This document shows positions 31,214 through 63,766 of a stretch of 64,000 nucleotides of DNA, one piece after another (position 1 is the stretch's first letter; the number at the start of each line of letters is the position of its first letter). Origin of the DNA: Apostichopus japonicus (taxonomy: Eukaryota > Echinodermata > Holothuroidea > Aspidochirotida > Stichopodidae); contig NC_092580.1 of assembly GCF_037975245.1 (NCBI RefSeq), positions 22,180,501 through 22,244,500 of the forward strand. The letters run 5' to 3'. The position numbers and the translations under genes are program-made. The notes beneath the pieces are model-generated. The model had not been told where the DNA came from, did not search any database, and saw only the letters and a list, made by a program, of their open reading frames with translations.

Positions 31214-34200
31214 CTTTTGTAGAGAGATAAAGAAAGTAAAACAGAAAATTAAAACTTAATTCATTTTAAGCCAAGACTTTTGAAGCTTGCTGCTCTTTCT
31301 TGTGTTTTACTAAGACTGGTATATCACAGTTATTGTCATATTGTTGGATTTTGGGCATTCACATGTACGTTTCCAATAACTGCACAAGGTGTAGGAGTTT
31401 AATACTATGTATGAACATGCTAAACATGTTAAATAATATGGAGTAGGAATATACCGATTGTGTGGGGGAGGGGGGGGGGAGTTACTATGTATGAACATGC
31501 TAAACATGTTAAATAATATGGAGTAGGAATATACTGACTGTGTGGGGGGAGTTACTATGTATGAACATGCTACACATGTTAAATAATATGGAGTGGGAAT
31601 ATACTGACTGTGTGGGGGGAGTTACTCTGTAAGAACATGCTACACATGTTAAATAATATGGAGTAGGAATATACTGACTGTGTGGGGGGGAGTTACTACA
31701 TGTATGAACATGCTACACATGTTAAATAATATGGAGTGGGAATAAACTGACTGTGTGGGGGGAGTTACTTTGTATGAACATGCTACACATGTTAAATAAT
31801 ATGGAATAGGAATATACTGACTGTGCGGGGGAAAGTTACAATGTATGAACATGCGATACATGTTAAACAATATGCAGTTGGAATATGCTGACTGTGTGGG
31901 AGGAGTTACTATGTATGAACATGCTAAACATGTTAAATAATATGGTGTGGGAAACATACTGACTGTGTGGAGGGAGATACAATATATGAACATGCTAAAC
32001 ATGTTAAATAATATACAGCGGGAATATACTGACTATTTAGGAGGTGTAACTATATATATGAACATGCTACACATGTTAAATAAGATGCAGTGGGAATATA
32101 CTGACCTCCGGCTACCACCTCAGGTAACTGATCTCTCGTCGGACTTCTACACTCCAGTGTACTTTCATTAACTGTCGCCGGAATTCGGTTTTCATTGAAA
32201 CGACATTCGTAAGATTGACCTTCTGCAAGTGCAGGTAGGTGAGTGACGGTTAAGTTTATCTGTTCATCGAGATAGGAGGGATTTGGGAGGGGAATAAAAT
32301 AAAAAATATATAATTAGGCATTTTACACAATATGACTACATTAATTTACTTTGTACTATATAAGGAATAATTTATATATATATATATGATTGTATATATA
32401 TATATATCTTAACTGTACAATCAAAGCCTAACTGTGATAACAGAGTGACTTACAATTTGTTCGTCCTCCTCTATTGCCAGTGAAGGAGGTGTCACAGATG
32501 TAATAGCAGCACAAGTTTCTTCATCATAGGGCAGCCATCTGCCAGGTACCTCATTACTTGCACAATCCAGGTACCTTGTACAACTGTGAACATCAAAGCC
32601 ACAACATGCAAGGAACTATGAATTTAATGAAATGACAACACAAAAAAAAAAAAAAAAAAACATTTTCCTATTCCTCACACTTTCAAACACCTTTTCATCT
32701 CTAGTCACCAACTTCACTCTGAATAAGTTTGTAATGGATCAAACCTAGACACCCTTATTAGGTTTGTCCACTTGTTTGAAGTTACTTGAGCGAGTGGAAT
32801 AATGAATTAGATTCCACGTGATTTGACACATTTCATATAATAGCACTTTGGAATGCAAAAGGAGAGAGTTGGAAAATTTCCATTTTTTTTTAAATTCTTT
32901 GGACAATTATTGAAATTTGGCTGAGCTAATGGCTAATACAACACTGTAATGTGATTTTAGTATGTAATAGCATTACAAAACTTTATGAAAGCAATTTAAA
33001 AAGCTGCTCGAAGCCGCAGGGTAGGCTGACAGGAGGTGAAAGTTCACCGTGGGCACCAAATGTTAGGTTTCTTGACCTTTGAACTCTGAACTTTGACATA
33101 CAACATTATCAATACAAGTTTACACGGTCAGGCACCTACCAACCAAATTTGAACTTGATTGGGCTTACAGTCTAGGAGAAATTTGTGACACACTTTTGCA
33201 CACAATTTAGACCAATTTTACCTTTGAACTCAATTGAACTTTGATCCCAACCCTATACACCTAAATCTGTCTTATTTTAAAGTTTTTCTCATCATTCTCT
33301 ACATATCATATGGTTTAATGCCTTTTAACAACATGTTGGCATGCAGAAAGTGGCTAAGAACTCATTTTTAAGTTTCTTGACCTTTGGTCTCTGATCATTG
33401 ACCTGTGACATCATCAATCACACAGGCACGAGTTTACAAGGTCAGCCAACAATCCACCAAGTCTGAAGTTGATCGGACATACAGTCTAGGAGGAGATTGC
33501 GACACACTTTTTGGCTCTCACACGCACGCACTCGCTCACACACTTCCTCACATTTCTAATGTGGAGTGAAGTACAATATCTCATCTCTCTAGATACAACA
33601 TTACATGTCAGAAGATGAGATAATTAATATTACTAATGGACAGATTACTTAAACTGTTCCCCACGCAACTGGAATATATAGGAAAGGCAATATGCAAAAA
33701 AAAAAAAATATTTATTAGTACTTACTTCAAAATACTTTTAATTTGTACAACAATCAATTTGTATACAAAGTCTCAGTGAGTGCCCTTCAATGCCATACAC
33801 ATCCTACAGGACATTACCACACAGACTCACACCCACACATTTAACCCATTAACAAAACAAAACTTATATATACTATATGATTCACAATTTTGCCACAATA
33901 TTGCAAACTTTAATCACAAATTCATAGAAACCTCTTCTTTATTGTGATTGAAGATATAATTTCCCAATAATACTATGCTTAATCCATCATTTTAGCAAGC
34001 TTCTATCAAACATGCATAAAATAATATGCATGCATCATTTATTAAATCAATTCTTCTAAATCAAACTTGTGTTAAAGATATCTCCAGCTCAACGATAGGA
34101 CTAAAATAAGCATAGAAAGAGTAGAATGTCACAAACACTTGCCAAGGTCGGGAGGGCCGACTAGCGACAGAAACTGTGAAGCGATTCTACCAGAAGTAAT

Positions 34201-40200: not shown

Positions 40201-42132
40201 AGTTGCACCAGCATACTAGGTATGGAATTCAATCTTCACTTTTGAAGTTTAGACTTCTGTTGACCTCACATGACCTTTGAACTCCAAAGAAAAGAATAAG
40301 GTTCTTGTACCCAAAAAGGTGAATCCACATACCAGGTATATATGAACTTTATGCAGGCTTTCCTTTGGAATTGTCATCTTTATAAGGCATTCATAATTTG
40401 ACCTCTGTTGTTTTCAGATGACCTTTGACCTCAACAGAAAACAATGGTATTCTTGTACTCCATTAGGTGGATCACATCAAATCACTTATCAAGTTAATCC
40501 ACGGTGTACTTTTTGAGTTATCGTAATTTTCAATTCAAGGGCATCATTTGTATAAATACATACTCACTCACACTGTATGCCAGTCAAACCGTCATATAAA
40601 TTTATTGTTAAATGATCATTAAAAGGCAAACTAATTCTGAAATAATCTGAAAAAGGACTTGCGTCAAATGTCTCAGGGATATGCTTCCAAATTAAATATT
40701 TTCCCAAATTGATTCACAGATTGATGCAAGGCTCATCAGTTCATTTACATACCTGTGTGAAGCATTATAAATGTGCTATGTTATAGAATCATACTGTAGC
40801 TCAAAAGGAGAGGAGCTCAGAGGGCATATAATGCAAAAGTTGTATGTTTTTAGAAGATGTACTCTTTATGAGGAAGAAAACATGGAATTTCTTGACGGTT
40901 CTGGCTACTGTATATATTGCATATACTGTATATACAGCGGTATTATAAATATTGTGGGCTACAAATACATAAAATATCATCTTAAGACACACCTACTGTA
41001 AAAGTTCAATGGTTGACAGGAATTGCAGCTCACATTTTGGGTAACAGCTTGAAAAGTTTAACATTTCCCCCCCCCCCCTTTTCTACCCCTCATGATATAC
41101 TGAAGAAAAGGTGTTACCAGTACTCACCCCAGTGAAACAGTTGGAAAATTGCAAGTAGTTACTGTGACTAGCATTTTTGTAATCGCATGCACAAGCCTTC
41201 ACAGCAGCGGAGAAGGTTTCTTCAAGACGGCCCATGTCATAGACACAAAGAGCGGACTGTGTACCGGGATTTAGTTCATATTCAGGGTCGATATTCTCGG
41301 TGAAAACGATGAACAATTTATCACCAAGAAGGTAGGAAGCCTGAGCTATGCTGTATACCGTGTTATCTTTGCCTTCACAAGCTAATTCCACTTCTGTGAA
41401 AGAATACAACGCATCAGTCTGATCTTTCATACAGAGGCGAGTGAGTTTTGGGATGATCCAGCTCTCTTCGTCGTTGGCGTTCTTTCTCCGGGAGGATAGA
41501 AAGTAGACGAACCCATTGTAGAAAAATGTTCCACTGTAATGTATCAAAAAGCTATCCACAGCCGATGAAGATATGATGCTTGTTGCACGATTCCGCTGTA
41601 ATGTCTGCAGCTCTATCTCAATAATCGGCGCTTTTGCTGGCGACTTTTTCACCCCTCTTGCAATATAAAGACTCTCACTTTCCCTCTCTCTACCTGGTGC
41701 AATGACACCGACGGTGGTGTACGGGGAAACCACCGCTTCAACATCCTCCACGGAAGATACGTGATCTATGTCATCAAGAGGTCTGGATTCGCACCCTCCG
41801 TCACCTGCTGAACCACATGTGAATATCTTTTCTTGGGATGCAGATGTTTCCAATATCTTGTATATGTTCTCTTCCCCATATGACAGTTGACTCTGGTCAA
41901 GCTCAAGATCCTCTGAGAGGTAGAAGAGTGCAGTGTTACCAGCTACATAGACTTTATCTGCATGAACTTTTAACAGCGTCAACGTTCTATTATAATTTTG
42001 GTGACTCCGGAATGCCTCCACAAGATAGTGGTCCGCATCGTTTACATGAGGTTCACAATCAGCCTTCGTTAGTAAAATGAATGTGATGAAAAGAGAAAGC
42101 AACTCCGGTCCTCTAAATGGAAACCCTTTCAT
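31117..42132 (-). CDS. PLXN: Plexin, 5' part (seven coding exons, incomplete)
   Basis: Plexins are single-pass receptors for semaphorins that steer axons and cell migration. Seven minus-strand exons join in phase (42132-41128, 37843-37619, 36231-36112, 35445-35333, 32583-32454, 32259-32106, 31213-31117) to give about 615 residues. Residues 1-25 are a signal peptide (MKGFPFRGPELLSLFITFIL). A Sema domain follows to about 450, with the plexin-type SALCVYDMGRLEETF near 306. PSI domain residues are Cys459, 465, 468, 480, 483, 489 and 495, with the core CGWC. An IPT-like segment and FYSC at the entry to PSI-2 close the visible part. Length so far matches the ectodomain start of plexins A and B (full length about 1,900). 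The last segment looks slightly more A-like, but subclass is open. Transmembrane and GAP exons are not seen. Confidence 0.93.
31403..32105 (-). repeat. ~70-bp minisatellite, ten copies, in plexin intron 6
   Basis: The phrase ATGAACATGC recurs at 31411, 31491, 31561, 31631 (variant), 31704, 31774, 31845, 31915, 31986 and 32058, so the period is 70-73 bp except for one 80-bp step. The array fills about four fifths of the 892-bp intron and runs right up to the exon 6 donor. Most units carry GTCAGTAT (minus strand), a copy of that donor. A minus-strand frame across 31,649-32,002 is only the repeat read as protein. Confidence 0.95.
32106..32259 (-). CDS. PLXN: Plexin coding exon 6: IPT-like segment
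   Basis: 154 nt from GATGAACAG|ATAAAC to GCCGGAG|GTCAGT, entering in phase 0 and leaving in phase 1. It encodes INLTVTHLPALAEGQSYECR and ECRSPTRDQLPEVVAG, matching the plexin 'YxCxF ... CxSPxxDQ(L/V)P' block. Its donor GTCAGT is the right-hand end of a minisatellite (see finding). Confidence 0.88.
32454..32583 (-). CDS. PLXN: Plexin coding exon 5: end of PSI and linker
   Basis: 130 nt from TGTTCACAG|TTGTAC to CAAATT|GTAAGT. With the two bases carried over it completes Ser488, then reads CTRYLDCASNEVPGRWLPYD and ITSVTPPSLAIEEDEQI. The 'Trp-(L/P)-Y-(D/E)' and 'V-x-P' pattern is the plexin linker before IPT 1. Confidence 0.9.
33060..33545 (+). repeat. Duplicated interspersed repeat, ~305-bp period
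   Basis: Two diverged copies in tandem: 'tttcttgacctttg' at 33,068 and 33,372, and 'acagtctaggag' at 33,170 and 33,481, with 'gacacactttt' after each. The second ends in CA-rich 'cacacgcacgcactcgctcac'. It is related in style to the 'tgacctttgacctc' repeats at 1-290 and 40.1-40.6 kb. Confidence 0.65.
35140..35220 (-). mobile_element. Possible mobile-element 3' fragment
   Basis: On the minus strand this reads 'gaagaagatcctgctagga' then 'tcgaaacttcaggcc'. I have a general memory of 'gaagatcctgc-aggatcgaaac-tcaggcc' strings near the ends of reverse-transcriptase elements in marine animals, but cannot name the family. No coding domain remains. Confidence 0.25.
35333..35445 (-). CDS. PLXN: Plexin coding exon 4: PSI domain
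   Basis: 113 nt from TTTTTATAG|GTTCTG to AAAAG|GTAAGT, entering in phase 0 and leaving in phase 2. It encodes VLKMSVIDCSQFSTCEEC and then DPSCGWCTLKK, the textbook plexin PSI spacing C-x5-C-x2-C and C-G-W-C. Confidence 0.92.
35446..36111 (-). other. Plexin intron 3
   Basis: 666 bp between Sema and PSI exons. AT-rich; nothing seen beyond the splice signals. Confidence 0.75.
36112..36231 (-). CDS. PLXN: Plexin coding exon 3: end of Sema
   Basis: 120 nt, residues 411-450, from TTTTCGTAG|GCAAAC to GAAACG|GTAAAA, phase 0. The peptide begins ANLNGADSIVYEVVDV and ends LLVLTNET, equivalent to the 'LYVMTEKQV' strand that closes the plexin Sema domain. The donor GTAAAA is weaker than the others. Confidence 0.85.
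36232..37618 (-). other. Plexin intron 2
   Basis: 1.4 kb without coding sequence. It contains one tRNA-like relic (37,184-37,248). Small plus-strand frames at 36,228-36,771 are not recognised. Confidence 0.7.
37184..37248 (-). pseudogene. tRNA-like relic (SINE head or tRNA pseudogene)
   Basis: On the minus strand the sequence begins GCGTCCATAGCCTAATGG, an A-box-like start, and contains a near-perfect B box GGCTCGAATCC (37,194-37,204). Six of seven acceptor-stem pairs form between GCGTCCA and TGGAGGC, and a CCGC/GCGG anticodon stem can close a 7-base loop. The T-stem does not pair and the whole is only 65 nt, so it cannot be a working tRNA. Confidence 0.6.
37619..37843 (-). CDS. PLXN: Plexin coding exon 2: Sema domain
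   Basis: It starts after CTTTCACAG and ends at TTGAAG|GTAAGT, 225 nt, phase 0 at both ends, residues 336-410. The peptide runs from NREFCQRQEVVDKLTCGID to IAFIGTDQGTLLK, which matches the 'GT..G.L.K' turn of the last Sema blades in plexins. Confidence 0.88.
38000..39691. mobile_element. Non-autonomous hAT-like DNA transposon, 1.69 kb
   Basis: The ends are perfect inverted CAGGGTTCG (38,000-38,008) and CGAACCCTG (39,683-39,691). Both flanks carry the same 8 bp, CCATCCAC (37,992-37,999 and 39,692-39,699), a target-site duplication. An 8-bp duplication and CAGGG termini are typical of the hAT superfamily. Just inside each end is a dense array of GGAAGAAACC / GGTTTCTTCC (38,005-38,137 and 39,578-39,690), the position where hAT transposases bind subterminal repeats. 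No transposase frame is present. A second element is nested at 38,810-39,383. Confidence 0.85.
38810..39383. mobile_element. Palindromic TTAA-target MITE, 574 bp, nested
   Basis: TTAA stands at both borders (38,806-38,809 and 39,384-39,387). The ends AGGACTAGTTCAGGTGTC and GACACCTGAACCAATCCT are inverted copies (16 of 18). Inverted similarity continues inwards through 'agtgaagaaa', 'ggagatat' and 'gtgacgtcatatcctcac', so most of the element is one large palindrome. TTAA duplication points to the piggyBac or Kolobok superfamilies; I cannot choose between them. It has no coding capacity. Confidence 0.85.
40140..40560 (+). repeat. 'tgacctttgacctc' repeat, about three tandem units
   Basis: Motifs 'atgacctttga', 'aaggtt..t.gtac' and 'tttgaagttt' recur every ~125 bp in diverged units, ending in 'tttttgagttatcg'. 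The same order of motifs begins the window at 1-290. Confidence 0.65.
41128..42132 (-). CDS. PLXN: Plexin coding exon 1: signal peptide and most of Sema
   Basis: This exon encodes residues 1-335 and ends exactly on a codon at CACTGGG|GTGAGT. The ATG at 42132 starts a clear signal peptide, and no other start fits. The Sema part carries NRTLTLLKVHADKVYVAGN, the GEENIYKILE blade and the Cys-rich KACACDY segment before NCFTG. Reading past the donor gives 14 non-homologous codons and a stop, which supports the splice site. Confidence 0.92.
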
Positions 42133-42161
42133 TTTTACTTGGTAGTAGGTCCAACAGGATC
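42133..42161 (-). promoter_or_regulatory. Plexin 5'UTR end with overlapping upstream ORF
   Basis: The 5'UTR part of the first coding exon appears to start after 'catgtatgcag' (acceptor at about 42,162-42,163). The first three bases are ATG, opening a 15-codon frame (MILLDLLPSKNERVSI-stop) that overlaps the plexin ATG out of frame. If the acceptor is right, scanning ribosomes meet this start first, so it could damp plexin translation. Confidence 0.4.
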
Positions 42162-53800: not shown

Positions 53801-54894
53801 AGATCGACGTTTTGTAAGCACGATAACATATTTTGCACGATGTCGCTTTTGTTCAATATCGGCTACATGCATGTGCACAGGATTTGGATCCATGGATATA
53901 CGTTATAGTGTAAGTAGAAGGCAAAATGTGAGTTCTGGTTATGAGTTAGCAGCTGCTCTGGTCTGCAAGATATGTACCTTTAAAATGTGCTTAGTGTCTG
54001 GAATACTCCTTTAAACGACTAATGCTCCTCATTTCAGTCCTAAATTTTAATGTCAATCCTTTGTTTGATAAATTCTAAAAACTCAACAAAACCTAGTTCC
54101 TTTACTACATATCAACTTAATATCAACATATCCCACCCCTCCCCCTCCCCAGATGGCATTCAACACCATTTGTTCATGCATGCTGAATTTGTACTACTGA
54201 CATGTACAAATGTCATGTCATTACTGTGAGGCCACAAAACTATTTTTTCCCATTGAGGTTTGGCTTGCATCTGAGGAACTGAACTAATGATCTGTGTATT
54301 AGACTACATAGTCCAGTCACTTTACTTGATAAAGGCTCAACTGTTTCAACGGACATTCCTCAAAAAAATAATAGTTAACAAAATACAACCTGGAACGAAA
54401 GCAGTGTTTTTAATTGTCTATTAACATATCAAAAATATTATTGTGCTTAAGTCGTCCTTTAAATTGTCATTATCAGCTGGCAACAGTCCTAATGTTAAAG
54501 ACTAACAGCAAAGAAAGAGTCACTTCGTCATGGTGCAATATTAATCTCCATTGGCTATTCTTAATCCGCATCATTGTACATGTGCTATCACAACTTTCTT
54601 TGTTTTTTCTCTTAATTTCTCAACAGAAGTCTTCGCGTGAAACAACCCACCAAAATCCATGTCAACTTCTGTTTGTGTTTGATCGGTTTCTACGTGTCAT
54701 TTTTGGCGGGAGATTTATCCTCCCCTCATCAAACACACTGCAAAAATACCTCAGCAGCCATACAATACTTCGCTTTATCAACAGTGGGGTGGATGACTGT
54801 TGAGGCAGTTAATATGTATTTCTTATTTGTGAAGTATGAAACGATGAGCATACAATACTTCATTCCCGTGTCGTGTGTGTTGGTCTACGGTAAG

Positions 54895-54982
<88 letters not shown>

Positions 54983-56468
54983 ATTTAATTTTCTTAATCG
55001 CTCCCATGAACAGTTTATAATGTTCATATTCTGACTGCATGCATGTTATAGATTTAAAAGGCCAACGACCATACTGTTTGTATCAATAAAGAGTGGGGAC
55101 TCGGGGCAAGGGGTAGGTGGTATAGATGGGGGTAGGGGTGGGAGCGCTGAGCGAAGTATGAAGTGTACCTTTTGTATTTCTGTAAAAAGGAGGGAAGGAC
55201 AGAACAACGCATACATTGCAAGCGTGCGATCCAGGTCAGGGTGGGTGGGTGGGGGAGGAAGTTGCGTATGAAACTTTTATGGGTTTAGTGGTAAATCCCA
55301 AAGAAATTCGAATTTCACCGGAATGCAATCTCATTGGACAAAAAGAAGCAATGATCCTATTTTTTCAATACCAAAAGAGCATTACATTTAGATATCATGT
55401 TTTCACCTTAAATATTAAAGAAACATAATGGGGGGGGGGGGGGTTGGTTACTGGAAAGAGAGAACACGTTATAATCTAAAGCTGTCTTGTTCTGATCTAC
55501 AGGTTATCCTCTTATACCAGTTCTTATTGCAGTTTGTCTCACCAGCCCAGATAAATATGACTGGTAAGGAAAAGAGAAAACTACTTGCACATGCAGTTAT
55601 ACTTGTTGTCCTAGTGATTGGCACTCTTGTTTATATCAAAAGTGCAAATATCTTTATGAAATATAAACATGAGCTTATGATATCAAATAAAAGTTGCAAC
55701 GCCACTTTCATGACGTTTATCTGGGCGTTTTGTAATTTAACTTTTAAATGAATAATATTGTTATGATTTCTGTAATTGAATTAGAAAATACATTTGCCAT
55801 CTGATTTTCGTTTGTAAGTTTTATCCTTTTCTATTTTTCATCGACATATACCCTTGAGACGGTTACATTTTAATGTCCAAATTCCCTATTTGATGAGGCC
55901 ACGTCTTTTACGCTCATGTTGTTGGCCGAAGGGTATGGGTAAGGGGTGGGAAATAGTCACAAGTTGGGAGATTTACCGACAAAAATCCTCTAAGCTGCAT
56001 CACAACTTTGAATTATTTTGATAAATAATCTCTGTACAATTTACTATCGTTTCCTTTGGTTTCAGCTGTTTCTTACCACCAACCGGAAGTGGCCATTTCT
56101 ACGGTTTTCTGTTCAATTTACTGGTTCTCGTCGGTTTCAACATCACCATTTTCCTCTTGGTCATCCGAAAAGTAGTTTTTAGAAAAATTATGATAACGAG
56201 TGCTGAGCAAAACAGAAAGAAAGAAATCATAGCGAGGATTCGACAGTTTGTTTTATTTTGGGTTCTCCTTGGACCATCATGGATTTTTGGATTTCTTTCT
56301 ATTTTACCGAACAGGGAAATGTTTTTCTCTGAGATCTTATTTTGTATTTGCACTTCGCTTCAAGGGTTCGTTCTATTTCTATTCGTTTGTGTGAGAAATC
56401 CAGAGGTTAAAAAGAAACTATGCGAAAGGCGTCACTCTAACAAAAATGACTCGCATGAGATGGAATAG
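50746..56468 (+). CDS. Adhesion-type seven-helix receptor (class B2), 376 residues
   Basis: Seven exons join in phase (50746-50830, 51991-52068, 52685-52809, 53560-53675, 54627-54889, 55503-55563, 56066-56468) to 1,131 nt. Residues 1-26 are a signal peptide, 30-96 a Ser/Thr-rich stalk. The 7TM domain follows: TM1 109-134 (WIGSSLSVVGLVACVL), TM2 ~146-163, TM3 ~177-202 with MTVEAVNMYFLFV, TM4 ~208-233, TM5 ~253-277, TM6 ~302-325 with LLGPSWIFGF, TM7 ~331-352 with TSLQGFVLFLF. The last two are signature motifs of adhesion GPCRs. Cys173 and Cys243 or 244 can form the conserved TM3-ECL2 bridge. Most relatives have a long N-terminus ending in a GAIN/GPS module; here none is seen. Ligand unknown. 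A possible ATTAAA poly-A signal lies at 56,682. Confidence 0.9.
50895..51140 (+). repeat. 16-bp minisatellite, about 15 copies
   Basis: The unit is close to CTCTACCAAACCCTCA with point variants (ctctaccga, ctcttccaa). Because 16 is not a multiple of 3, all three plus frames are open and each reads the same 16-residue cycle (for example STKPSLYQTLTLPNPH). Confidence 0.92.
51516..51600 (+). repeat. AT-rich tandem repeat, 11-13 bp unit
   Basis: About seven units of 'aattaagctaa' with small length changes. Non-coding, in receptor intron 1. Confidence 0.85.
51991..52068 (+). CDS. Receptor exon 2: Ser/Thr-rich stalk
   Basis: From TTGCTTTAG|CTGAGT to ACAACTA|GTGAGT, 78 nt, phase 1 at both ends. 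It encodes ESTVLLTSEITRETTTPQ, about 40% Ser/Thr, a likely O-glycosylated stalk. Confidence 0.75.
52069..52684 (+). other. Receptor intron 2
   Basis: 616 bp, AT-rich with a poly-C run near 52,600. Nothing coding seen. Confidence 0.75.
52685..52809 (+). CDS. Receptor exon 3: Ser/Thr-rich stalk
   Basis: From TTTGTTACAG|AATATA to AGATTTG|GTAATT, 125 nt, phase 1 to 0. It reads YSAVETTASPRTLPLETTAG and ends DYLNPDFYIDL. The Thr/Pro/Ser content again suggests a mucin-like stalk. Confidence 0.75.
52810..53559 (+). other. Receptor intron 3 (where a GPS exon would be expected)
   Basis: 750 bp. I looked for a GAIN/GPS exon (paired Cys, Trp and a His-Leu-(Ser/Thr) site) and saw none. Contains a poly-G run at 52,884 and a CT-rich tract near 53,520. 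Confidence 0.7.
53560..53675 (+). CDS. Receptor exon 4: TM1
   Basis: From CTTTTATAG|ATACAG to GATAAA|GTGAGT, 116 nt, phase 0 to 2. It encodes IQETDAPIVKRTLNAVRW and then the first helix. No GPS Cys or His-Leu-Thr/Ser cleavage motif precedes the helix. Confidence 0.85.
53676..54626 (+). other. Receptor intron 4
   Basis: 951 bp with no recognisable exon. A plus-strand frame that runs into the next exon in the wrong phase was dismissed. Confidence 0.75.
54627..54889 (+). CDS. Receptor exon 5: TM2 to start of TM4
   Basis: From TTTCTCAACAG|AAGTCT to GTCTACG|GTAAGA, 263 nt, phase 2 to 1. It contains SLRVKQPTKIHVNFCLCLIG (the 'K.R....IH.N.C..L' pattern of class B TM2), ECL1 Cys173 and STVGWMTVEAVNMYFLF for TM3. 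Confidence 0.93.
54890..55502 (+). other. Receptor intron 5, with long (AT)n
   Basis: An uninterrupted TA microsatellite of about 74 bp fills 54,900-54,973, starting 10 bp after the exon 5 donor. G-rich runs lie at 55,236-55,257 and 55,430-55,443. Confidence 0.85.
55503..55563 (+). CDS. Receptor exon 6: TM4 and ECL2
   Basis: 61 nt between TGATCTACAG|GTTATC and GACTG|GTAAGG, phase 1 to 2. It encodes YPLIPVLIAVCLTSPDKYD, the second half of TM4 and ECL2 up to Cys243. Confidence 0.85.
55564..56065 (+). other. Receptor intron 6
   Basis: 502 bp, AT-rich, nothing seen. The open frame from 55,428 continues into it but shows no homology after the donor at 55,564. Confidence 0.75.
56066..56468 (+). 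CDS. Receptor exon 7: TM5-TM7 and tail
   Basis: From TTGGTTTCAG|CTGTTT to the TAG at 56,466. It encodes TM5, a basic third loop (AEQNRKKEIIARIRQ), TM6, TM7 and a short tail NPEVKKKLCERRHSNKNDS ending in HEME. The 'N-x-E-V-(R/K)' start of helix 8 is typical of adhesion GPCRs. Confidence 0.93.
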
Positions 56469-57336: not shown

Positions 57337-57537
57337 ATGGCTGACCAAAGAGACGTAGACGTGAAGATAGACGGGAACAGGCAGGCCGACCCACACAAAC
57401 AACAGGCGTCGAGTTCTAAAGGGAAGGCTCAGTCCACCGACAATCAAGAAAGCAAGCCATTAATAGTGCCAGAAGGATTAAGCCTGGACCAAAGAGACCC
57501 CCAGGGATTGCATGATGAAGACCATTCAGATCTAAAG
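57337..57537 (+). CDS. CAV: Caveolin alternative first exon A
   Basis: 67 codons from ATG (MADQRDVDVKIDGNRQADPH) to CTAAAG|GTAAAT. It is hydrophilic with a Gln/Ser/Lys-rich middle, and its last 20 residues carry the caveolin 'RDP' motif. In the transcript it would splice over exon B to 63,398. Confidence 0.85.
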
Positions 57538-60500
57538 GTAAATAAAATACTACAGAAGAGAAAGTTCAGGGCCCGGGGTAAGGTTTTGACAACAGTATAT
57601 TTAGGTTATAGAGAGAAGAGACGTAAGGTCCTTCCCCTGCCCAGCCCTATCCGTCCGCTGGTAAACTTTACAATATTTTAGGGTTATCGTCCTACCCGTA
57701 CGATTTAAGCATTTCTATTTAAAAATATTTGTATTTCATAATCCTTTACAGACCCATAGCTAGGCACGGAAGCGGTGTCGACAGTTATAGTTCATAAGTT
57801 ACAGGACACACATATTGTGCCCCTCCTTAAAAGGTGGTACACGTGTAGGCATATATGAACCCAACAATGTATTGCTATTAAAATTACACGGAAAGTTACG
57901 ACGGTGTACGGTCCGTAACTGAAACCAAATGAGGGACGCTTTACCTGCTTGAAACGTTGTCTTCCTGGCAATACTTAAATCTTGACAAATAAAACAATAC
58001 ACATATGGTTTCAAGGGAGGAGAGGCAGGTCCCGGTGGTCCGTATAGTCATGGAAGGGAAGGAGGAGGAGATGGAAATGATATCACCACTTTGCACCACT
58101 AAGCTCCGTTACCCCAGAAAACATTTCTCAGAATGCGAACCCCTACCTTTACGACCCCTCCACAGGACGGAAATCAGCCAAAATTTGTTCCCCCTCACCC
58201 TCCCCAAAATTCAAATCTGGCAACGGGCCCGATTCATGGAGTTGTTGATATCATAAATGTTATCAAATTTTTACTTCTGCATCCGTAGTGGGTCAAATTA
58301 CTCTGGGTCTTTATGCCTTGACACCCAAAGGTACCGTGGATAACTCCCTCCCCCCCCCCCATTGTATATATTTCACGGTTTCTGTATATTGTCTTGTTTA
58401 AAGATATTCATGAATTCCACAAAACCACTCCCCTTACACCATCCATGGACCGAACAAATATACCAGAACAGAAAAATAACTGTTCTACATATTAGCCTAG
58501 ATTCACAGTGACGATAACAGCTAGAGGTTTCTTGAAACAGTAAATAACAGAATGAGATCAAATAGCTTACCTTTCTTAATAATTAACTTCACTTGTTACT
58601 ATCGTTCAATTAACGCTGTTTGTATTCGTGACACGTCTAATGACAGTAACTGCATGATGACAATTGGCTAAGAAAGCGACAAGATTGAAGAAAATGAGTC
58701 TCGACAAACAATGCAGTTCAAGGTATATACAAAGATGGGACTAAACAACGGCCTCTCCATCTCCTTCTCTTATCTGTTTCTTCTCTGAAAGTTAATCGCT
58801 GCAACTCCTGATGGCGGTCAATGTTAAACTCTAGTTTACCATTAGAATTGAAAATGATCTCTTGCTAGGGTAAACGATGCGGGGGGGGGGTGTGATTATA
58901 GGGGCTATATATGCGTATTCATTGCCCCCCCCCCCGCAACCTTTCTGAGATGAGAACTTGCCGCTGTTCGTTAGTTGATGCTCCTCCCTTCGTAAATTCC
59001 CGCCGCGAACAGGTGGAACAACCCATTGGAAAGAAGCCGTAATGAGTGCGGCTTATTATAAGCGTACGCTTGGTTTCTGCCTTGGACATCAAGCAAATGA
59101 TACAGACTTCGCAGAGTAACAGCAACCTGTACACAAGTATGCCTCGTTGTACGACCTTTAATGGTCAGATCGCGAACAAGCTTCACTGGAGACGAAAGCC
59201 CAAACATCATCTTTGGCTATTATGACAGAGATCCTTGTGAAGAACAACTCCCTCAAACAGCTAAGAAAAATATGGCTCCGTTTGAGAGAAGTCTGTCTTA
59301 GATTTTGTAAGTCTGTGATGACACCGTGCCACTAGGATATGAACTTTTGACTTTTTCTTTGTTTTCCTTTACATATTTCAAGCATCCGTCACATGTAGGC
59401 CTACTTAGGCCAATAACGAATGGTCGGGTGTGTGTTTCCTTTTACCCATCTCGCCCGTCGGCCTGCAACGCCTGAACTTTTCCAATGATTTAAGTAACAT
59501 ATTAAGATTGTATCCTATGTTTCGCCTTAACAATTTCAGGTGTGATTTTCTTAATTCTGTTGAAATTTGAGAATGATCGTTTGAAGTCATTATCTATGAT
59601 TATTGCTGTCGTTTTGTTGTTGCTTTTTGGAGAAATGTCTAAACTATAATATCCCTTATTGTTGTTGTATATCATATAGTGTCTAGCAACGTAAGATCTG
59701 GTGATGTCACGTGATACCGTGTATATAGCTTTTCTATTCATTTCATTTCTTTGGCAACCTGTCGTTTGCACAGCTTTCGTATTTGGTCGAATGTATATGC
59801 CGGGTAAAGAAATAACCTTGAAAATCAAGGCAAAAATTATCAAAGATTTACTGTCCTTGATAACAATACAACGCGGTATCACGCATGGCTAATTTTGAAA
59901 GAAGTCGCTATACAAAAAATATTTTCAATTTCATCAATCTGTTGTTAACCAAGCCCTCGTCGACTTGAAAGGGTAGGCTACACACTATAGAACATTTTGT
60001 AGGACTGCCCTATATGCGTTGCACTGCACAGTAGTAGACACGATACAAACCATTTGATCGTCCGACGTTTTAACCCATTAATGCGATAGAGTACCGTATG
60101 TTTTGAACATGGCGGACAATATAGAGACCAAAGTCTATGCGAGCAAAGCCTCGGGAGCTCGTGTTATTTCGTTTTCGACGGTGATAGACGAAGAAAGTCC
60201 AAGACGTGTTGTTGAGCCGGAAGATCAGCAAAAGAGTGGAAAGGGGGCTCCGCCGTCCGGCAGTATCTATGCGACAGTAGGGACCCATCATGCAACACCG
60301 TCTCTGCCACCGCCCAGAACGTTCACTGATATTGATAACACAGACAACTGGGATACACCAAACGATAAAAAGATATCAACACAAGATCGTGATCCGCAAA
60401 ATATCAACGAAGATATCTTAGTGAGTTAAAAAGATCAGACGTTTCGTGATGAACGTATCTTGATACAATTATCATATACGGTAACACGAGTATAACGTGG

Positions 60501-63500
60501 TCATAGATATATCATTCATGCTCTTTCGTTCGGTGTACTCGATTACGGTGAATATTTCTTTCATGGCCGTGGCTATTCTTACGACCAGGAGTAACAATTA
60601 TTTATAAACTATTCTTACGAAATCGGCGAATTTCCGGTTACGCATGCGCAGTAAAGTAAATAAAGCAACTGCGCATGCAGTAGGGGTAACCCTAACCCTA
60701 ACCCCTAACCCTAACCGGAAATTATTGTTACTGCTGGTCGAAAAAATAGCCACGTTAAAGCAACTGCGCATGCGTAATCGGAAATGATTGTTACTCCTAG
60801 TCGTAAAAATAGCCACTTCGTTCTTTCATACCATGATGTTTCTTGCTGACACGAGAACACGTGTATCAAACATGTTCATATGCGCATATATACATCAACT
60901 TTAGTTTCTATCTCTATGTATGTTACTCGGTTTTATTCCATAGCCTATAGTATTTTCAACATGTAGGCCTAACTTTCGCGAATAATTCAATTGGTCATGG
61001 TTTTGTTATAACAATATATTATTAATTAATATTCTTACAAACATATAATGTGGCATTGAATTAATTTTATTTTGTGAGGATGGCTCTTCATCTCATTTGT
61101 TTTGATATAGGCCAACGTACTTAATTACTCTATTTCTAAATGAACTCATGGAAAACGAGAATTGGAACTCACTTTGCAGGAATGTAATTCGATGTGCCCT
61201 AATTTCAGCATCTGTCACTGGACTTACGGATGGATAAACATACAGACACACAACAGTATACACGAATATGCTCGGATAAAACAGTAGGCAAGGGTCTGCA
61301 AGCAAAATCGATAGACTTGTCTCAACCTGTTGTACACTTCCTAAGCTACTTTCCTCATCAAGTATTTCACTTGAGTAAATCTGTGTAGTTTGTTTCGTGT
61401 TGCTAAATATGTGCTAGCTCACACTACCAAAGGCTACATAGGCCTACCCATCCGCCTCGGTCCGATTCCACGAATGCGGTCTAATCCGAGCTTGAGAATA
61501 CATCACAAGCATGTGTTTTCGTATAGTTATATATGTGTGACTCAGTGGTCTTGCGGTATTGCGGTGTTTCTGGCAATTTGTGACAGTCCACTTTGCGAGT
61601 CGCAGCCTCACATGATCAACGCCGCACTTTTACGCATACCCGTTGAAGCGCGTCGCCCTCTGCACACTGGCACATGGATTCACGTGCCCATCGGCTGGAC
61701 CTATAATACTGTTTGAGTATTCAAGTACTACACCTAGCCAATTTACCCATATTCAGTACATTTGCTGTGTGTGATAATCTCATTCAAAATCTGTTGGCTC
61801 GTTTTCGAAAAGCTGTTTCGTTTCCAAGAAATATATACACATTTGGGGAAGCTCACTGAATATGTGCAAACTATGACGTGGAGTGCTGCGCTCATCGAAA
61901 TTTCTAAAGTTCGTCCTTAATAAGTTAAGCTCTAATTAGAAGCCCACATATATCATTTGAATAATGTAATGTTCAATTTTTCAAGGAAGACAATAAAATA
62001 TTTCAAATAATCGCCTTTAGGCCACAAACCTGTGTTCAGTGTCCTTGAAACGAAGGTTGTAAAAACGATGGATAACATAATCGAAATTTAGGCAGTCACT
62101 ATCTTTACATCGTCAATGTGCATAATTAGCTAATGTTTATTCAATAATAACACTAGAATTAAGAAAATACTTGTAAAATAGTCAATCTTTGAGGGAGTTT
62201 TTTGACTGGAGATTTAATCTTGTTAAGACCCTAGTATGAATAGCGTAGTGTACCTTCTTTTTCACAAAGCTATTTTCCCGTATCTATTTGCTGTACTGCA
62301 CAGAGAATGCCCGCGACAACGTTTTCGATTGATACGAATTCACGCCCTCTTTAGAGAAATGTCCAAGACGTTTGTATCGGACAGATCCTCGTGCATGTCA
62401 AAAACAGTGAGCAAGCACATTCGTGGTAGGCAGAAACGGACTCTGAGGCATGTACAGTTTCACGCGAGAAAAAGAGTATTACGAACGACTTGGCTAGGAC
62501 TATGGGAGTTGCAGCTATTTTCGTGAATTAGGACAATGTTCTTGATAGGTGTCCGTAGACCTTTTAGGGGATTTGAGCAAGCTATCTGAAACGATCAACC
62601 TTAAAGTGGTTCGCTACATACTTATGCAATGCCCAAGACTCAATGTTGGCCGGGCAGGAGGAAATTTCCGGTCTTGGATTGCTATCTGTAGAGAGTAGAG
62701 CAAAAATTCATTAGGTTAAACCATGCACATAAAATCTTTAACAACTATAGTTCTCCCTAGCTCACCACTAATTTAACCAAAACCTCTGTTATTCATAATC
62801 AGGGTACTCGATCAAAGCATCCCAATTTCTATGTTATTGATTCTAAGGGTTGTGTTAGCTCTACTTTCTACTTCACGGCAATTCAGGATTGGAAAGCTCT
62901 TCCAAATCATATTAAATCCAACAACCCTTCTAGTCTTTTTAAAGCTGAGTTAGGGAAGTATCTCATCTTATATGGGGTGTGGGGAGGGGGAGGCACATTT
63001 CTGAAATATGTGCAATATGTGCGTTTTAGAGTTTTATTTATTAGTTTTATTGGAATTTACCATTGAAAGTGCAGCTTTTTGTCCTTAGGGCCCGATTGGA
63101 AATGGGCCGACGTTCTGTCAGCCCAATGGGTTTATAGCTCCTGTTACTCTTTTCGTTCTTTTCAATCTGTTCCGTTCTATTATGTCATCTATGTTATTTT
63201 TTGCATCTTAAACAATCTGAGTGCGAACAAAACAAACACACAAACAAACTTTACGGCTGTAAAGTAAATGTTGACTTTATTACTATGTATTACGTCATAC
63301 ATGCAATCGACTTAAGTTACGTCACAGTACACTGTATACGTTAATTCTTGTCACTCCAGAAGCTTTGATTTTTATCTTCATTATCCTCTATTTTCAGGTT
63401 TCATTTCCAGATATTTTTGCCGAGCCGACAGGACTTCACAGTGACGACAAAGTATGGGTGTGTACGTACAAAACTTACAACGGTAGTAAGTTCTTGTGTT

Positions 63501-63766
63501 ATAGGATATGCACCTACATATGCGCGGTCCCTGCAGCTTTCATCTGGGGTATCACATTCGCCTGTTTAGCATTTTGTCACATCTGGTATGTCGTGCCTTT
63601 CTTGAAAGCCTTCCTCATTGAATTGAAATGTATTGGAAAAGTCTTCATGCTCTGTGTCAAGTCATTCTGTGATCCTATTTACACCTCCATTGGGCTCATT
63701 TATTCAAGAATTAGAGTCAATTTTATACGGTCTGACGGCAATGGCGGTGGACAGTATCCGGTATGA
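57337..63766 (+). CDS. CAV: Caveolin, isoform A (189 residues)
   Basis: Caveolins are hairpin membrane proteins that oligomerise, bind cholesterol and shape caveolae. Exon A (57337-57537, residues 1-67) joins the common exon C (63398-63766, residues 68-189), both phase 0. The acidic N-terminus ends in LDQRDPQGLHDEDHSDLK, matching the vertebrate 'NRDPK.LNDD' segment. Then come the signature FPDIFAEP (70-77; vertebrate FEDVIAEP), the scaffolding domain DKVWVCTYKTYNGSKFLCYR, and the intramembrane hairpin with AAFIWGITFACLAFCHIW and conserved Pro112 and Pro134. Cys145 and Cys158 align with two of the three palmitoylated cysteines of human CAV1; the third is Phe here. The length is close to the 178 residues of CAV1. 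A TTG-initiated extension upstream was rejected in favour of the ATG. Confidence 0.9.
57538..60108 (+). other. Caveolin intron between first exons A and B
   Basis: 2.6 kb. Contains poly-C/G runs (58,350; 58,881; 58,925), the second copy of a dispersed repeat (59,215-59,325) and, by inference, the promoter for exon B at its right end. Minus-strand frames at 58,971-59,210 and 59,502-59,882 are not recognised. Confidence 0.6.
59215..59325 (+). repeat. Dispersed repeat, copy 2 of 2
   Basis: Shares 'cagagatccttgtgaagaac', 'aactccctcaaacagcta' and 'gattttgtaagtctgtgatg' with 14,781-14,890. Ends not defined. Confidence 0.5.
60109..60420 (+). CDS. CAV: Caveolin alternative first exon B (isoform B, 226 residues)
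   Basis: 104 codons from ATG (MADNIETKVYASKASGARVI) to GATATCTTA|GTGAGT, phase 0, so it can join the same exon C. Like exon A it starts Met-Ala-Asp and ends with a caveolin-type segment, STQDRDPQNINEDIL. The middle differs completely: Ser/Pro/Thr-rich with PPSGSIYATVGTHH and LPPPRTFTD. An own start codon implies a second promoter just upstream of 60.1 kb. An exon A-to-B-to-C product is unlikely because no acceptor precedes the B ATG that I can see. Confidence 0.82.
60569..60816. mobile_element. Inverted-repeat element carrying telomere-type repeats
   Basis: The left end GTGGCTATTCTTACGACC and right end (inverted) GTGGCTATTTTTACGACT match at 16 of 18, and each side carries a second, inner copy (60,608-60,651; 60,718-60,753). 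ACTGCGCATGCG-type palindromes recur inside. The centre (60,687-60,716) is five TAACCC units with one extra C. No target duplication was found, so the superfamily is open. Confidence 0.7.
60687..60716 (+). repeat. Interstitial telomere-type repeat (TAACCC)5
   Basis: TAACCC repeated five times with one inserted C and the last unit short by one base. This is the metazoan telomere hexamer, here inside the inverted-repeat element. Confidence 0.9.
62700..63250 (+). mobile_element. Degenerate LINE 3' end
   Basis: The plus strand reads IRLNHAHKIFNNYS, TKTSVIHNQGTRSKHPNFYV and FYFTAIQDWKALPNHIK, then SSLFKAELGKYLI. These are the C-terminal blocks of a CR1-like LINE reverse transcriptase ('LNH..KI.N', 'H...TR', 'AI.DW..LP..IK'). 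One stop interrupts it. A 3'UTR with 'gattggaaatgggccgacg' and an A/C-rich tail follows. Confidence 0.8.
63398..63766 (+). CDS. CAV: Caveolin common last exon C
   Basis: 122 codons from ATTTTCAG|GTTTCA to TGA at 63,764. It holds the signature, scaffolding and intramembrane domains and the C-terminal helix with conserved Cys in ELKC and SFCDP. It ends in a Gly-rich GNGGGQYPV, a little longer than vertebrate CAV1. No AATAAA is seen before the window ends. Confidence 0.93.
   Translation, partial: VSFPDIFAEPTGLHSDDKVWVCTYKTYNGSKFLCYRICTYICAVPAAFIWGITFACLAFCHIWYVVPFLKAFLIELKCIGKVFMLCVKSFCDPIYTSIGLIYSRIRVNFIRSDGNGGGQYPV

Follow-up and report, generated by a model that had tools for sequence, protein, structure and literature searches.

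Caveolins are proteins that give small pits of the cell membrane their shape. The caveolin locus in this window (the whole stretch of 64,000 nucleotides of Apostichopus japonicus DNA analyzed here) raises the question of whether one gene makes two caveolins with different N termini. An earlier note on this DNA had proposed two interchangeable first exons, arisen by duplication and driven by two promoters, that join one common exon. Our best reading is that two alternative first exons feed a single core exon, the A-core junction being backed by the open reading frame of a relative and the B-core junction being predicted from sequence. We put at about 0.78 the probability that this is one single-copy caveolin gene in which two first coding exons alternate, each presumably under a promoter of its own, ahead of one core exon. 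The features are as follows (a slash marks the exon end).

57337..57537, + strand, probable alternative first coding exon A (67 aa; phase-0 donor AAG/gtaaat; relatives P0004 and P0005)
57478..57513, + strand, pin-motif-like segment within exon A, LSLDQRDPQGLH (alignment to the human Cav1 pin region)
57538..63397, + strand, A-core intron, 5,860 bp (exon coordinates; A-core junction matched by P0004)
59509..60108, + strand, candidate promoter region of exon B (CpG observed/expected, 1.18)
60109..60420, + strand, probable alternative first coding exon B (104 aa; phase-0 donor TTA/gtgagt; coding score)
60373..60408, + strand, pin-motif-like segment within exon B, ISTQDRDPQNIN (rank 1/127,876 of window peptides against human Cav1)
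60,421-63,397, + strand, predicted B-core intron, 2,977 bp, the last part of the A-core intron (exon coordinates)
63398..63766, + strand, common core exon, ending in the stop codon (PF01146, 132 bits)

Translation confirmed the coordinates of exons A and B, their open frames, their phase-0 ends, and the RDPQ segment before the splice. Both exons start with Met-Ala-Asp, and RDPQ occurs twice in the six frames of the 64-kb window, once per first exon. The translation of exon A ends in DLK before gtaaat, that of exon B ends in DIL before gtgagt, and the core opens with GTT after ttttcag. The description of a short charged and a longer Ser/Pro-rich N terminus also held, as the 67 residues of exon A are charged and include no tyrosine, and the 104 residues of exon B are Ser/Thr/Pro-rich, with tyrosines at Tyr10 and Tyr54.

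The core exon matches the Pfam Caveolin family (PF01146; cutoff, 25 bits) at 132 bits alone, at 145.9 bits when joined to exon A, and at 155.9 bits when joined to exon B; neither exon A alone nor exon B alone has a Pfam match. It contains most of the hook, the signature-like FPDIFAEP, and the scaffolding, spoke, and C-terminal strand regions. The closest solved structure is human caveolin-1 (7SC0; 4.3e-36 for A+core and 5.4e-38 for B+core), with residues 81 to 213 of B+core aligning with residues 42 to 174 of the 7SC0 chain at the latter value. The core and the pin region align with this chain, but the pin residues differ in part, and the solved chain has one N-terminal region, unlike the two of the window gene. 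The structure 9DN0, which we take to be the sea urchin Type I protein of PMC12330381 (its PDB listing title is just "Caveolin"), belongs to the same family and is far behind (50 versus 128 bits; 3.6e-12 for A+core and 6.5e-12 for B+core).

In PMC12330381, the pin motif is reported in Type II caveolins only, and assembly of many subunits into an amphipathic disk is a further mark of this type; residues 1 to 48 of human Cav1 are predicted to be disordered, residues 49 to 60 form the pin, which contacts neighboring subunits at the rim, and residues 61 to 81 form the hook. In the window gene, FPDIFAEP aligns with FEDVIAEP of human Cav1, which places the Type II signature motif in the hook. A pin motif ahead of the hook, as in Type II caveolins, is likewise found at the sequence level, clearly in exon B; in exon A, the assignment comes from the alignment with human Cav1 and from P0004, the exon's own score against the human Cav1 pre-splice peptide (21; z = 4.7) lying within the window background. 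The 7SC0 alignments, together with the coordinates of a second caveolin gene (contig C2), put the beginning of the core exon near human residue 66, so that the tail, the pin, and the first few hook residues sit in the first exon. A four-row MAFFT alignment in which the RDPQ ends of both first exons fell opposite the core was discarded, and an AlphaFold2 monomer model of P0004 (two-row input with the window core; mean pLDDT, 42) was set aside.

Homology searches with A+core and B+core returned P0004 and P0005 as the sole relatives. P0004, found by protein search on a contig of 1,116 bases, is a protein of 193 amino acids, of which residues 4 to 193 match residues 2 to 188 of A+core (125/192 identical). 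It is a single open frame across the A-core junction, at the point where the window has the 5,860-base intron, and the joining of A to the core is supported for this reason. A transcript is the simplest source of P0004; an intronless copy would read alike. In the same peptide scan as above, the exon A pin scored 106 against P0004, the next best peptide reaching 25 (z = 12.6). P0005 consists of exon A with read-through into the intron, with 1 of the 67 exon residues changed (compared by eye). Exon A has a single match in the genome (671.6 Mb, 35 contigs), at this locus. Its donor scores 7.21, in the top 2.4% of 3430 GT sites, its frame stays open in 3.6% of 5000 shuffles of its own bases, and its coding score is reached by 1.7% of 2746 sampled stretches.

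Exon B carries the more recognizable pin. Among the 127,876 ungapped window peptides compared with the human Cav1 pre-splice peptide, the end of exon B ranks first, with a score of 47 versus 25 for the next (z = 7.3). Shuffling the bases of exon B gave an uninterrupted frame in 0.26% of 5000 trials (0.12% for the core), and none of 2740 stretches drawn from 51 kb of the window reaches its coding score. With two exons as its training set, this test is weak and only supportive, because 1.7% of stretches score as high as exon A and 7.3% of 2738 as high as the undoubted core exon. The donor scores 4.66, in the top 7.4% of 3430 GT sites, with a poor exon side (TTA). Exon B also has a single match in the 671.6 Mb and 35 contigs of the genome, at this locus, and no relative was found at an E value of ≤10 among 20 candidates (query, residues 1 to 104 of B+core). 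A genome search with PF01146 gave five matches, of which one is on contig C20, namely the core exon at 63398..63766, and tblastn of the window gave no second caveolin core (next best E, 0.47). Because of these two results, the core is the sole caveolin partner found in cis for exon B. In addition, no signature-type match was found in stretches L007 and L008, which cover about 19.8 kb beyond the window. The claim that both first exons can join the core thus stands as far as the reading frame goes, and P0004 supports it for A; for B, splicing to the core is predicted from the frame and the splice sites.

The remaining PF01146 matches lie on contigs C2 (two) and C17 (two). The C2 matches can be read as two exons of one gene, located in stretch L009, which is interrupted by a phase-0 intron at the position seen in the window gene (donor GTGAGC; acceptor tag/GTTGGC). 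This gene resembles the window gene in its pin segment with QDRDP, in the position and phase of that intron, and in having human Cav1 as its best PDB match. It differs in having one pin-bearing first exon in the stretches scanned, and its core is apparently divided by another intron. Across L007 to L013 (seven stretches, 66,000 bases), a pattern scan gave eight RDP places and some pin-like scores of up to 30 (in L007), and one pin-bearing exon was recognized, that in L009; this place alone scored against all three pin queries and precedes a phase-0 donor, the other places being judged by eye. The two C17 matches (L004 and L005) are about 10.8 kb apart and are probably neighboring genes. One of these two exons, L005, scores higher against 9DN0 than against human Cav1 (50.9 versus 39.2 bits).

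As for the proposed pair of promoters, the 600 bp upstream of exon B have a CpG observed/expected ratio of 1.18, a value that 55 of 2536 equally long segments reach, whereas the 600 bp upstream of exon A are ordinary in this respect (0.61; 952/2536). Two promoters are thus plausible, the CpG-intact DNA before B being consistent with an unmethylated promoter there; the CpG content says nothing for A. Only the stretch before B was used, because the CpG downstream of it comes partly from an inverted-repeat element. This element (60569-60816), which starts 148 bases past B, is 248 bases long, has 35-nucleotide inverted ends that are 91% complementary and inner inverted repeats, and looks like the remnant of a small DNA transposon.

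The position of exon B between A and the core would also suit a cassette exon inside the A transcript (A-B-core), an outcome that the earlier note had named as one that would refute its reading. Splice sites were scored with weight matrices, and no in-frame support for this order was found. The six in-frame AG sites inside the open frame of exon B all score below -3, versus 10.63 for the core acceptor, a value reached by 14 of 3509 AG sites. Seven acceptors score at least 8 within 57,540-63,400, and only the core's own keeps the frame of A; when A is joined to any of the other six, a stop follows after 2 to 40 codons, giving 69 to 107 aa in total. In-frame splicing from A to B thus looks unavailable, and we consider an A-B-core transcript very improbable. 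A fair acceptor upstream of B, at 59,774 (score, 8.05), leaves room for an intron in the 5' untranslated region, and the transcript of B might then begin with another exon. We also considered exon B as the relic of a decayed second caveolin gene that has lost its core, with A-core alone being expressed. Exon B is absent from every protein found, and its end resembles the first exon of another caveolin, as expected of a paralogue relic. However, its 104 open codons, coding-like usage (0/2740), in-frame donor, and CpG-intact upstream DNA point to an active exon, and the tblastn search of the window turned up no remnant of another core, which makes this explanation rather unlikely.

The origin of the two exons is a separate matter. 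The earlier note took A and B for duplicates of one first exon, and the Met-Ala-Asp start and the RDPQ shortly ahead of a phase-0 donor are indeed common to both. However, 194 of 2000 shuffles do as well as the best local alignment between them, which lies at the exon ends. Before the pin, 605 of 2000 shuffles align as well, and since this likeness is within chance, the statement that the middles of the two exons are unrelated holds. The end of exon B is closer to the first exon of the C2 gene, where no shuffle of 2000 does as well (752/2000 for the part before the pin), than is the end of exon A (470/2000). Conversely, the part of exon A before the pin is closer to P0004 than any of 2000 shuffles, and exon B compared with the first part of P0004 is matched by 444 of 2000. 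The sequences thus suggest a conventional pin in B and a diverged pin in A, which leaves a recent duplication of one into the other unsupported. Duplication of one first exon is in our view quite unlikely; these comparisons weigh more against a recent event than against an old one, whose copies may have diverged beyond recognition. A further possibility, which we hold only tentatively and think doubtful, is that the exons swap the pin itself, giving two kinds of rim lock per locus, and that A and B derive from two old caveolin lineages whose neighboring genes fused, with loss of the other core.

Under the preferred reading of two alternative first exons on one core, both phase-0 donors would be spliced to the single core exon, and each first exon would supply a different, probably disordered N-terminal tail together with its own version of the pin, the segment predicted to contact neighboring subunits along the disk rim. 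The core would supply the disk-building, membrane-inserting part. Because the first exon encodes both tail and pin, switching it would alter the tail and the rim lock jointly while the body of the disk stays constant. The same disk might then display a short charged tail without tyrosine (A) or a longer Ser/Thr/Pro-rich tail with two tyrosines (B). We infer the separate promoters and the functions of tail and pin from these features. In Cav1, Tyr14 has a role in tail function, and by analogy the tyrosines of exon B may be linked to control of the Tyr14 type.

Alternative caveolin starts are already known, because in humans, mice, and zebrafish a single gene is said to yield Cav1 alpha and beta by way of distinct mRNAs (PMC7536398). 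In that account, beta is alpha minus its first 32 residues, and one of the references listed there deals with alternative transcription initiation and splicing. The earlier statement that the vertebrate pair differs only by start choice was thus imprecise, as the two forms are translated from distinct mRNAs. Like CAV1 as described in PMC7536398, the window gene has two N-terminal forms on one core, the B form being predicted; unlike CAV1, it combines two unrelated tails with a separate pin segment in each first exon. What sets it apart from the known alternative starts is the presence of the pin motif in the swapped exon. Tail and pin swapped as one cassette on a constant core would make a natural test of their contribution to disk assembly, one that leaves the membrane-embedded part unchanged. 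If exon B is confirmed, alternative caveolin N termini would be no vertebrate peculiarity. Searches of open-licence PMC articles on caveolin isoforms, first exons, and echinoderm caveolins gave no paper on such a gene among the matches listed.

The neighborhood of the gene includes exons matching the secretin-type 7TM receptor family (54616-56468, + strand), the last open frame of which ends 0.87 kb upstream of exon A. Downstream of the caveolin gene, a 911-codon open frame (L007:7012-9747, - strand) is by eye like another 7TM receptor. In vertebrates, CAV and MET genes share a neighborhood. A large exon at 41083-42159 (- strand) shows weak Sema-domain similarity (0.0034, under the Pfam cutoff); its best solved match is Plexin A (7.8e-13), with hepatocyte growth factor receptor (MET) appearing only at an E value of 0.13 and above. 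Two kinase motifs were also sought in the window by pattern, and no instance free of a nearby stop turned up; such a scan would miss a gene that is cut by introns or located outside the window. A CAV-MET neighborhood is thus unsupported here. Repetitive open frames at 31310-32032 (- strand) are made of a recurring unit and are likely a tandem repeat.
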